Below are positions 18,897-22,418 of a DNA stretch of 44,670 nt, in pieces (within the stretch, counting starts at the first letter, position 1; every line of letters begins with the position of its first letter). The DNA is from Candidatus Hydrogenedentota bacterium (GTDB taxonomy: Bacteria; Hydrogenedentota; Hydrogenedentia; Hydrogenedentales; CAITNO01), in NCBI GenBank assembly GCA_029776995.1, contig JAKOTZ010000168.1, positions 1 to 44,670 on the forward strand. Reading direction: 5' to 3'. A program made the position numbers and the translations under genes. A model generated the notes under the pieces. That model was not told the DNA's origin. It made no database searches and saw only the letters and a list, made by a program, of their open reading frames with translations.

Positions 18897-20219
18897 TCAG
18901 AAGCTGATCTGAGTCTCTATGAAGAGGTAGTCGTAATCATCATCTCCGGATCCGTTCCAGGCCAGCAGCCCGTTACCGATAAACCGGTTATCCGCCAGGC
19001 CGTCGTTGCCGAAGAAATGCACGTACCCGGCGTTAAAGGTCAGGTCCTCGCTGTAGGCGTAGCTGCCATAGAGCCCCAGTTCCAGGCCGATGTTTCTGTC
19101 CGCCCGGCGGCTGCCGAAGAGCCCGCTGGAGACCAGCGCCCGTTCATCCGCTACAAAGTAACCGCCAACCAGCTGCAGCGTTACGGCTTCGGTGGGGGTG
19201 AGGTCCAGGCCAAGGCCGTAATAGAAGAAGTTGCTCTCGTCCGTGTTGGCGAAGAATTCCGTGTACTCGTAGTTGGAGAAAAGGCGGTTGAACGGAAGGG
19301 TCCGGTCATTGGACCACGGGCTGTTGTCCGGATCTCCGCCATCCAGCCACGAAAACCGCGCGAACAGCCTGGGTTTCCAGGTAATGTCGAAGGTATAGCC
19401 GGCCTGGGCAAATACCCCGAAACTGTCGTACTTCACGTCAGCCTCGCCGAATCCGGCCGGACACGCGGAAGGCAGCCCATCCACGTCCCCGAACTGATAG
19501 GCGCCTTCCACCTCATAATCGAAAGCGCCGAATACGCCGGCAGCGCGGATGCCAACCGTGTGCAGGTCCACATCGAAGGCGGTCAGGAAATTATCGTCCC
19601 GGACATAGAACCAGTAGGCGTCAAACGTATGGTCCTCGATGGCGGTAACGGAGGCGTACACCCCGTAGAAATCCAGGTCGTCCGACCCAAAATCACTGGT
19701 CACGGTTTCTCCCAGTTTTGCCGCAAAGCCGTCCACCCTGAATGCCTCATCGACCCAGGACAGGCGGATTGCGTCGAAAGAGAGCCCCTGGTAAAACGAC
19801 GCGGCGTCGTTCACTCCGACCAGCCACTGGCTTCCAAACGCAAGTTCCTGGCGACCGACTCTAAGCTGAATCGGCGTACCCCACATATTTCGGGCTTCGA
19901 TATACGCCTGGTATATCTCAACATCATCGGAACTGTTCGCGCGGCCGTCAATTCCACGGAGATAGTCCGACCGGAAATCCTCACCCCAGAGATCAAAGCT
20001 GTCCAGCTCCACGAAAGCCGTCACTTCATCGGTGAAATCCGCCTTTACACTCAGCCGGGTGCGCTGTTCAATGTAGGAAAGATCCCCCAGGCTGTCCAGG
20101 TTGTAATAGTTCCCCCGAATCCGCAGGCTTCCGCCAACTTCCACATTCTGCAGTTCGGCGTAAAGTGGACCCGCCAAAAACAGTACGGCTGCCAAAGGCA
20201 AGATATAGCGTCGGTTCAT
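18897..20219 (-). CDS. AlgE-like outer-membrane beta-barrel protein, copy 1
   Basis: 440 residues with a signal peptide (MNRRYILPLAAVLFLAGPLYA, cut before ELQN). The mature part is a chain of alternating amphipathic strands rich in aromatic and acidic residues, and it ends in a terminal Phe (LFIETQISF) as outer-membrane barrels do. The pattern of R-x-R near the start, EQRTRLSVKADF, VEIYQAYIEARN, LRVGRQELAFGS and LSFDAIRLSW matches the alginate-export (AlgE-like) family. AAGGAG stands 8 nt before the chosen ATG. The frame also runs upstream to an in-frame ATG at 20303, which would destroy the signal peptide position. It is a clear paralogue of the gene at 20756-22069 (ELQNVEVGG start, FVELDSxDxWGEDFRS). 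The transported substrate is unknown. Confidence 0.82.
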   Translation of the reverse strand: MNRRYILPLAAVLFLAGPLYAELQNVEVGGSLRIRGNYYNLDSLGDLSYIEQRTRLSVKADFTDEVTAFVELDSFDLWGEDFRSDYLRGIDGRANSSDDVEIYQAYIEARNMWGTPIQLRVGRQELAFGSQWLVGVNDAASFYQGLSFDAIRLSWVDEAFRVDGFAAKLGETVTSDFGSDDLDFYGVYASVTAIEDHTFDAYWFYVRDDNFLTAFDVDLHTVGIRAAGVFGAFDYEVEGAYQFGDVDGLPSACPAGFGEADVKYDSFGVFAQAGYTFDITWKPRLFARFSWLDGGDPDNSPWSNDRTLPFNRLFSNYEYTEFFANTDESNFFYYGLGLDLTPTEAVTLQLVGGYFVADERALVSSGLFGSRRADRNIGLELGLYGSYAYSEDLTFNAGYVHFFGNDGLADNRFIGNGLLAWNGSGDDDYDYLFIETQISF

Positions 20220-20300
20220 AGATATTCTCCTTGTCAGTGTTTGTTGAGTTCGACTCGTGTATACGCGCAAATCAGAAATCAGGTCCCGCTGCGTTGCTGA

Positions 20301-20312
20301 CATCCCTCCTTT
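20301..20312 (-). promoter_or_regulatory. AAAGGAGGGATG element, porin 1 leader
   Basis: The string is a perfect match to the 16S anti-Shine-Dalgarno, followed at once by ATG (20301-20303). The ATG is in frame with porin 1, 28 codons upstream of its start, but its spacing from the AGGAGG core is too short for good initiation. The same string lies in the porin 2 leader at 22219-22230. It may be a ribosome standby site or part of an RNA fold. Confidence 0.4.
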
Positions 20313-20357
20313 CCTGCGGCAGTCTGACCCGATCCTGAAACTGTTGCTGATCCGGCA

Positions 20358-20380
20358 GTCTCCTCTTGCGGTCCGGAGAC
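20358..20380 (-). promoter_or_regulatory. Leader hairpin with ACCGCA loop, porin 1
   Basis: In the minus-strand transcript GTCTCC pairs with GGAGAC around an 11-nt loop that contains ACCGCA. A hairpin with different stem bases but the same loop hexamer lies in the porin 2 leader (22234-22255). The matching loop and changed stem suggest a structured RNA element, though two examples are not proof. Confidence 0.4.
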
Positions 20381-20689
20381 CCGGGATCACGGCCCGGATC
20401 CCCGGCACCGCACTGGGCTGACGCAAATCTGATTCAAGGAGGGCAATCCATGTGCCAAAAAAATCGTATGGCCGGCCTGCTCTTGCCGCGCTTGTAAAAT
20501 TTTTTCTAAGTTCAATTTTTTGAATTGTTTAAGAAAAAGTTTTGCCATGGTCACGGCTTAACGATTATTGGAAGCCCGATACCATACCGTCTTATTGATG
20601 CGCTTATCCTACCCACCGGTAGTTTTTTAAATCTCCCGGCTCTGCGGGCAGATTCCACCCCTATCCCCCCGGCAGATGATTTTTCTCGC

Positions 20690-20733
20690 AAAAGAAAAAA
20701 AGAACTCCCCGGCCGGGGAAGCCGACCGGGGAG
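20690..20733 (-). terminator. Rho-independent terminator of porin 2
   Basis: On the minus strand CTCCCCGG pairs with CCGGGGAG (20726-20733 with 20705-20712). A T-rich run (TTCTTTTTTTCTTTTG) follows directly. It lies about 25 nt after the porin 2 stop codon. Confidence 0.88.
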
Positions 20734-20755
20734 CGAAGCGCCTTCAGAAATGACC

Positions 20756-22069
20756 TCAGAAGGAGATCATCATTTCGGCGAAGACATAGTCGTAATCATC
20801 GTCATCAGCGATGCCGATGTTGGTCAGGCCGTTGTTGTCAACCACCTGCACATCGTTGTCATCAGCCGTGGCGAAGAAGTGGGCATAACCGGCGCGGAAC
20901 GCCAGGTCTTCGGTGTAGTTGTACTTGCCGACCAGGCTCAGTTCCCAGCCCAGATCGCCGTCCGTGCCATAGTCTTCATCCGCATCGAAGTACTTGCCGG
21001 CCAGTTTCAGGGAAACGGCTTCCGTCGGCATCGCTTCGACCGCAAGGCCATACACGAAGATGTTGCTCAGGTTGGCGGCGCCCACGTTGTCCAGGAAGTA
21101 GCTGTATTCTTTGTCGCTGAACAGCCGGTTGAAGGGCAGTTCGCGGTCATTGGACCAGCAGCTTTCATCCGGATCGCCACCATCGTACCAGGCGAACAGG
21201 GCGGACACGCGGGGCTGCCAGGCGACGTCGAAGGTGTAGCCAAGGTCAGCACTCACGGCCCAGGCCTGGTAATCGACATCCGCTTCGCCGAAGCCAAACG
21301 GGCAGGCGGAGGGCTGTCCGTCAACTTCGCCAAACTGGTAAGCGACTTCAACGTCGAAATCGAAGCCGCCCATTTTGCCAGCGCCGCGCAGGCCGACGGT
21401 GTGGATGTCAACGTTGTCGCCCAGCAGGACTTCGTCATCGCGGACATACAGCCAGTAAGCGTCGATCACGACATCTTCGATGCCCATGTAGGACCCGTAA
21501 ATGCCATACAGATCGATGTCATCGGAAGCGAAATCGCTGATGATGGTGTCGGCCAGTTTCGCGGTGAACGCGTCAACGCGGAAGGTGTCGGTCACATACG
21601 CCAGACGGATGGCGTCAAAGGACAGGCCACGGAACAGGGCTTCCGTGTCATTGTTGCCCAGCAGGAATTCACTGCCGAATACCAGTTCCTGACGGCCGAC
21701 CCGCATCATGAGGGGCGTTCCCCACATTTCGCGGGCTTCGATGTAGGCCTGGTAGAATTCGACGTCATCCGTGCTGGCCTGGCGGCCATCGGCGCCGGTG
21801 AAGTAATTGGAACGAAAATCTTCGCCCCAAATGTCATAGCTGTCCAGCTCCACGAACGCCGTCACGTTGTCCGTGAAATCCGCTTTCACGTTCAGCTGCG
21901 TGCGCTGTTCGTAGAAGGAGATCTCCTGATCCTGGCCGTCATCCAGGGACCAGTAGTTGCCGCGGATGTGCAGTTTGCCACCCACTTCCACATTCTGCAG
22001 TTCAGCGGTCGCAATGCCGCCCAGCGTCAGGACGAGCGCTGCCAAAACGATCATTTTCATCGTACGCAT
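20756..22069 (-). CDS. AlgE-like outer-membrane beta-barrel protein, copy 2
   Basis: 437 residues with a signal peptide (MKMIVLAALVLTLGGIATA, cut before ELQN). It is a close paralogue of the 18897-20219 product along its whole length, with the same ELQNVEVGG mature start, YEQRTQLNVKADF, VELDSYDIWGEDFRS, FYQAYIEAREMWGTPL, RVGRQELVFGS and terminal Phe (MMISF). Loops between strands differ most, as is usual in porins. Two starts are possible: ATG at 22069 (AGGAG 9 nt upstream), or ATG at 22060, which overlaps the stop of a 54-codon upstream frame as ATGA. It has a strong promoter about 314 nt upstream and a strong terminator, so it is probably highly expressed as one gene. Confidence 0.83.
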   Translation of the reverse strand: MRTMKMIVLAALVLTLGGIATAELQNVEVGGKLHIRGNYWSLDDGQDQEISFYEQRTQLNVKADFTDNVTAFVELDSYDIWGEDFRSNYFTGADGRQASTDDVEFYQAYIEAREMWGTPLMMRVGRQELVFGSEFLLGNNDTEALFRGLSFDAIRLAYVTDTFRVDAFTAKLADTIISDFASDDIDLYGIYGSYMGIEDVVIDAYWLYVRDDEVLLGDNVDIHTVGLRGAGKMGGFDFDVEVAYQFGEVDGQPSACPFGFGEADVDYQAWAVSADLGYTFDVAWQPRVSALFAWYDGGDPDESCWSNDRELPFNRLFSDKEYSYFLDNVGAANLSNIFVYGLAVEAMPTEAVSLKLAGKYFDADEDYGTDGDLGWELSLVGKYNYTEDLAFRAGYAHFFATADDNDVQVVDNNGLTNIGIADDDDYDYVFAEMMISF

Positions 22070-22221
22070 GTACGTATTCTCCTATGTTGTTTGCATTGAC
22101 CAACTTCTGTCACGCGACTCGCATGACACGGATACCGGACCCGGTCCGGCACCCTCGATATATCGCCACATCTGAGCCCGTTCCGCACGGAGTTATGGCC
22201 CCTACGGCCTTTAACGCGCAT
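22057..22221 (-). other. Possible 54-codon upstream frame in porin 2 leader
   Basis: A frame from the ATG at 22219-22221, preceded by AAAGGAGGG, runs 54 codons and ends in TGA at 22057-22059. That TGA overlaps the ATG of porin 2 codon 4 as ATGA. The peptide would be Arg- and Cys-rich and does not resemble a known protein. It may be translated only for coupling, or not at all. Confidence 0.25.
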
Positions 22222-22233
22222 CCCTCCTTTCTG

Positions 22234-22255
22234 CTCCAGGTTGTGCGGTCTGGAG
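22234..22255 (-). promoter_or_regulatory. Leader hairpin with ACCGCA loop, porin 2
   Basis: On the minus strand CTCCAG pairs with CTGGAG around a 10-nt loop beginning ACCGCA. AAAGGAGGGATG follows 3 nt later. It corresponds to the hairpin at 20358-20380 of the porin 1 leader. Confidence 0.4.
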
Positions 22256-22389
22256 ATGGCAATGCCTGATTCACACGCGCGCCCGGGCGCAACACACGAT
22301 CCAGGCGCCGCAAAAAACTTAAACTTTCCCGCACTGTTGAACAGACAGTCAACCAGTGCACCTCAAAAATGCTCCGCTGTTTGCAGGAC

Positions 22390-22418
22390 AGTTTACCACG
22401 TTTTCACGCCAAAGTCAA
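22390..22418 (-). promoter_or_regulatory. Sigma70-type promoter of porin 2
   Basis: TTGACT (-35) and TAAACT (-10) are separated by exactly 17 bp. Transcription should start near 22383, leaving a 5' leader of about 314 nt before the porin 2 start codon. Confidence 0.65.

Follow-up and report, generated by a model that had tools for sequence, protein, structure and literature searches.

The leaders of two neighbouring porin genes in Candidatus Hydrogenedentota contain, with near certainty, a structured cis-acting RNA. Pairing and covariation comparisons show a predicted hairpin with stems P0, P1 and P2 and an asymmetric internal loop; the 5' side of its apical loop displays GAAAGGAGG-N-AUG. We found this element in the window (the whole 44,670-nucleotide stretch of DNA that was analysed), which comes from a genome whose closest named relative is the MAG Gw_SlDig_bin_152, with 92% identity across porin A. 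Porin A (20756-22069, 437 aa) and porin B (18897-20219, 440 aa) are tandem Alginate_exp (PF13372) paralogs on the minus strand that are about 60% identical, and such porins occur in 17 of 17 genomes of the family. The leaders of the two genes align poorly to each other beyond a 12-mer motif. Two more porin paralogs are encoded in the same genome (G000:C52:29531-30841 and G000:C38:7454-8758) and have no motif upstream, which suggests that this genome also has differently controlled porins.

An exact search located the 12-mer, AAAGGAGGGATG, once in each porin leader, at 20301-20312 and 22219-22230 (minus strand), and neither strand of the 3.41-Mb assembly contains another exact copy. Across 60 relatives the 12-mer was strongly enriched over its reversed pattern, and two copies about 2 kb apart were present in several genomes. 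The motif in these relatives is longer and reads G-AAAGGAGG-N-AUG. Among porin leaders of the family, it was present with at most a few changes in about 42 of 46, approximately 100-190 nt upstream of the start codon and in surroundings that are otherwise unrelated. The distance from the motif to the porin start codon ranged from 94 to 234 nt with a median of 164 nt.

To examine folding, we compared the arms flanking the motif in 55 distinct leaders that were selected by motif and position only. Matched arms paired with a mean energy of -28.1 kcal/mol, as compared with -21.7 kcal/mol when arms were swapped among leaders. None of 10,000 permutations of the arms reached the matched value, the best being -24.0 kcal/mol, and shifted regions gave -20.3 to -21.5 kcal/mol. 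RNAalifold applied to a plain MAFFT alignment of 14 leaders yielded P0 (CAUC/GAUG), P1, the asymmetric internal loop and P2, with 19 pairs of which 11 had double changes. A covariance model built from those 14 leaders (R1) recovered more porin leaders, including some that the motif pattern search had missed, and scored the window copy upstream of porin A at 49.9 bits. A second model (R2) was built from 40 copies and gave 80 distinct aligned copies. In this alignment all 19 modelled pairs had double-sided changes and 89.4% of the cells pair. The covariation score was 0.627 for the 80 copies versus 0.186 after shuffling and at most 0.113 with slid partners; because this alignment was fitted to the model, it is the arm-swap test and the RNAalifold fold that provide independent evidence. 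At paired sites, G-U combinations outnumbered A-C combinations 99 to 39, which indicates that it is the porin-sense strand that folds. The P2 stem (22189-22193 with 22233-22237, and the homologous columns in alignment A6) pairs freely and is biased toward GGAG/CUCC. The 3' strand of P2 could compete for the Shine-Dalgarno (SD) sequence in the loop or for the SD of the porin, and this is a possible switch. We also looked for an intramolecular partner of the loop, and the longest complements in the leaders were no longer than those in reversed leaders.

Variants of the motif were counted from the covariance-model alignment with no preset limit on the bases at the A positions. The motif, which reads GAAAGGAGGGATG in the window, has a core that was invariant in the 80 distinct copies. 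At the A positions of GAAAGGAGG there were 16 changes in this unbiased alignment, every one of them from A to G, so that wobble pairing with U is kept; these A-to-G changes are common to related copies. The base that follows the core is free and is followed in turn by a near-invariant AUG. An A in the internal loop was conserved in 76 of 80 copies, and a tail of the AUAnA type follows P0, with AUA in about 95% of the copies.

In the window, the element upstream of porin A (copy A, 22156-22260, minus strand) is a complete P0-P1-P2 hairpin with its tail. It matched R2 over the full length at 64.1 bits, with an E value of 2.8e-14 in 6 kb and 1.6e-11 genome-wide. Its apical loop carries GAAAGGAGGGATG at 22219-22231, as located by exact search. 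The covariance-model alignment places the remaining parts on the same strand, with P0 formed by CAUCU (22254-22258) and AGAUG (22169-22173), upper P1 by ACCGCA (22244-22249) and GUGCGG (22183-22188), and P2 by GGAGC (22233-22237), which adjoins the motif, and ACUCC (22189-22193), the last pair of which is non-standard. The conserved AUAnA-type tail after P0 is at 22156-22168. The element upstream of porin B (copy B, 20255-20336, minus strand) is a short, divergent form that R2 scored at 16.7 bits (E 0.018 in 6 kb), with GAAAGGAGGGATG at 20301-20313 by exact search. Its arms have several changes in the sister species and mostly still pair there. The intact motif, the location and the mostly preserved pairing of the arms in the sister species lead us to accept copy B as an instance of the element.

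The original prediction described motifs shared by the two leaders, namely a hairpin with ACCGCA in its loop and, downstream, AAAGGAGGGATG. The exact search upheld the latter before both porin genes. By contrast, the ACCGCA-loop hairpins are not the element. As a shared signal the hexamer is not enriched (23 matches in the window versus 30.9 expected), and it is not kept in the sister species G001, where it reads ACCGTA in copy A and CCCGCG in copy B. The 6-bp stems of both hairpins can be written on paper but each loses pairs in G001. In copy A the proposed loop is in fact the 5' strand of the conserved P1 (22249-22244), where the ACCGTA of the sister species still pairs by G-U, and in copy B the proposed hairpin is outside the conserved element. 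The reasoning that a changed stem with a kept loop reveals selection on an RNA element did hold; however, the loop concerned is GAAAGGAGGNAUG and the stems are P0, P1 and P2. The unequal spacing between hairpin and motif had been seen as a weakness, an objection that falls away once the 12-mer is recognised as the loop. The region of the copy B ACCGCA hairpin and a neighbouring GGGATCCGGGCCGTGATCCC stretch (20358-20381), upstream of the element, are partly conserved in the sister species.

Matches to R2 were found in 55 of 68 Candidatus Hydrogenedentota genomes, spread over 11 families, so the common control element that had been suspected for the two porin genes extends well beyond them. A search of related genomes with a covariance model, a check of the kind suggested at the outset, produced further examples upstream of porins: all 89 of the R2 matches examined were upstream of an AELQN-type porin signal/mature junction, 87 as judged by pattern and two by eye. 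On this genomic context, the RNA element is dedicated to AELQN-type porins. Two contigs labelled Nitrospiraceae and Rhodothermaeota (L131 and L148) carry relatives of these porins and had no R1 match; their labels may be wrong or the genes may have been transferred. Rfam 15 gave no gathering-level match in the window, and permissive settings returned only noise there.

The best sigma-70-like promoters in the relatives cluster 90-145 nt upstream of the motif, and many combine a perfect TTGACA with an extended -10 box across a 17-nt spacer. These promoter-like sites upstream of the motif imply that the element is transcribed and is inside a 5' UTR of about 250-300 nt. The predicted 5' end of the mRNA is about 90-135 nt upstream of the motif, a distance that counts against the docking model described below. 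For porin A, the predicted promoter is TTGACT-17-TAAACT (22390-22418, minus strand), and 164 nt separate its -10 box from the motif downstream. A search for a porin B promoter gave no convincing candidate. Directly 3' of porin A, at 20691-20737, a GC-rich inverted repeat in the minus-strand sense is followed by a T run and resembles an intrinsic terminator by eye, which makes a separate promoter for porin B probable. We also considered a -10 box within the hairpin. TATAAT-like strings occur in one clade and fall in the internal loop, and this candidate was rejected, the promoter-like sites being about 100 nt farther upstream.

The 3' end of 16S rRNA was read from the eight genomes of the phylum in which this was possible; the window's own assembly has no 16S gene. 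In all eight this end is CCTCCTTTC, with the rRNA ending in GGATCACCTCCTTTCT, the 3' end in this phylum being CCUCCUUUC. The loop sequence GAAAGGAGG is a perfect 9-bp anti-SD partner with a predicted pairing energy of -15.0 kcal/mol, as compared with -5.2 to -6.9 kcal/mol for porin-type SDs. A leader sequence complementary to the 16S 3' end, as is characteristic of STAB-SD sequences, is therefore present. The AUG is 1 nt from GGAGG, a spacing that would be too short for initiation. Start codons at a usable spacing were rarer than expected (6 versus 17.0 +/- 3.8 after shuffling, or about 14 by permuted triplets), with part of this shortage coming from low local U. This pattern points to a putative ribosome-binding sequence that is kept from becoming a start site. 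We give about an even chance to the idea that the element, within its long porin 5' UTR, uses a hairpin to display a non-initiating docking site for the 30S subunit and works in the manner of STAB-SD or standby sites.

Several other explanations were weighed against this. The strong SD with an AUG behind it (GUG once) speaks for AAAGGAGGGATG as a normal start site, serving a leader peptide whose translation would regulate porin expression. However, the original prediction had already called the distance from this SD to its ATG unusable and the site not an ordinary start, and the data agree on both counts. The spacing is 1 nt, three copies have AGG, a 1-nt indel follows the motif AUG between sister species, and the AUG frame has no coding signal, with a median of 16 codons to a stop (range 0 to 100) versus 18 and 19 in the other frames. 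We therefore consider a leader peptide quite improbable. The idea that the 12-mer common to both leaders is a relic of porin duplication, or a promoter or operator site acting at the DNA level, draws on the paralogy of the porins and their approximately 60% identity, yet we give it very little credence: the leaders align poorly outside the motif, the motif is kept in 11 families in which its flanks and stems undergo compensatory change, G-U exceeds A-C on the porin-sense strand, and the promoter-like sites are about 100 nt upstream. It is equally hard to credit that the GGA in the hairpin loop is a CsrA/RsmA target. CsrA prefers GGA motifs in loops and a csrA gene is present in the window's genome (G000:C13:5119-5274); however, of the 13 family genomes scanned, 12 have no csrA although they carry the element, and the conserved stretch is longer than a CsrA site.

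A more serious alternative, possible although on balance doubtful, is that the hairpin is the site for a specific trans-acting regulator, such as an uncharacterised RNA-binding protein, a metabolite or a partly complementary small RNA, with the resemblance to an SD being exploited or incidental. An exclusive link to one porin family is what specific regulators typically show. Moreover, conservation goes beyond what anti-SD pairing needs: the AUG after the free base, the internal-loop A (76 of 80 copies) and the AUAnA tail are unexplained by pairing with 16S rRNA. These features count against docking, and because of them a reading with a dedicated protein or ligand stays alive. Against such a regulator, the core matches the anti-SD complement at every base, and all of its variation preserves wobble pairing. 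A fully complementary small RNA is excluded in the window's genome, where neither the 12-mer nor its complement is present anywhere except at the two leaders. For a riboswitch, we found no hint of a ligand, and the associated genes are porins only.

Pairing of the loop with the 16S 3' end and docking of the 30S subunit are what we infer from the leader and rRNA sequences. In the docking model, the apical loop would base-pair with the 3' end of 16S rRNA and the 30S subunit would dock without starting translation, since only 1 nt separates the AUG from the paired sequence. Once docked, the 30S subunit would either shield the porin mRNA from decay or keep a ribosome near the true start, and the outcome would be support for high porin output. 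RNase J was not detected above the cut-off in any of the 68 Hydrogenedentota genomes, and RNase E/G was found in 63 of them. Because RNase J is absent, the classical STAB-SD mechanism is inapplicable, and we ruled out stabilization via RNase J. Any effect would thus be limited to RNase E/G-initiated decay or to ribosome recruitment. The porin's own SD had a mean unpaired probability of 0.42, versus 0.40 for the whole leader, so the sequestered true ribosome-binding site (RBS) that is a feature of standby sites was not seen. With no special sequestration of the porin SD, there is no obvious need for standby.

We propose more tentatively, rating it somewhat short of an even chance, that this is a new kind of ribosome-recruiting leader RNA. 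A hairpin with a perfect 9-nt anti-SD complement and an unusable AUG would capture the 30S subunit without initiation and couple porin mRNA stability or translation to the availability of free ribosomes, across a phylum in which RNase J is absent. If 30S docking is correct, this would be a case of an SD used for structural docking instead of marking a start, among bacteria without the exonuclease usually invoked for elements of this type. At about 100 nt, the element itself is compact. This cis-regulatory RNA is uncatalogued, occurs phylum-wide and is associated with a single porin family, and it provides an initial entry point for studying how an uncultured phylum controls its genes.

As a comparison, the cry3A STAB-SD of Bacillus thuringiensis is a 5' mRNA stabilizer near the mRNA 5' end that blocks RNase J1 (Agaisse and Lereclus, 1996, reviewed in PMC4113751), and the major transcript of cry3A begins 129 bp upstream of the start codon (PMC4113751). 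The porin element resembles it in having a putatively non-initiating SD-like sequence upstream of the gene that could pair with the 16S 3' end, and in its long leader. It differs in that a covarying, conserved hairpin presents the motif, the predicted 5' end is about 90-135 nt away, and the phylum has no RNase J. The standby site of Escherichia coli tisB involves a pseudoknot, a single-stranded region, protein S1 and a sequestered RBS (PMC7708055). The two have in common a structure in the 5' UTR about 100 nt upstream of the start; binding of the 30S subunit with later aid to initiation is a feature of tisB that would be shared under the docking model. Unlike tisB, the porin element has a loop that is a perfect anti-SD complement and a porin RBS that is not clearly sequestered. 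The element is also similar to lineage-specific candidate cis-regulatory RNA motifs from comparative genomics (e.g. PMC2864571), as it is a covarying 5' UTR element associated with one gene family in one lineage. Unlike those motifs, its core is an anti-SD complement and is not aptamer-like, and it matches no Rfam 15 family. With covarying structure, a transcribed leader and a single gene family all found here, the element belongs to the general class of cis-regulatory structured leader RNAs.
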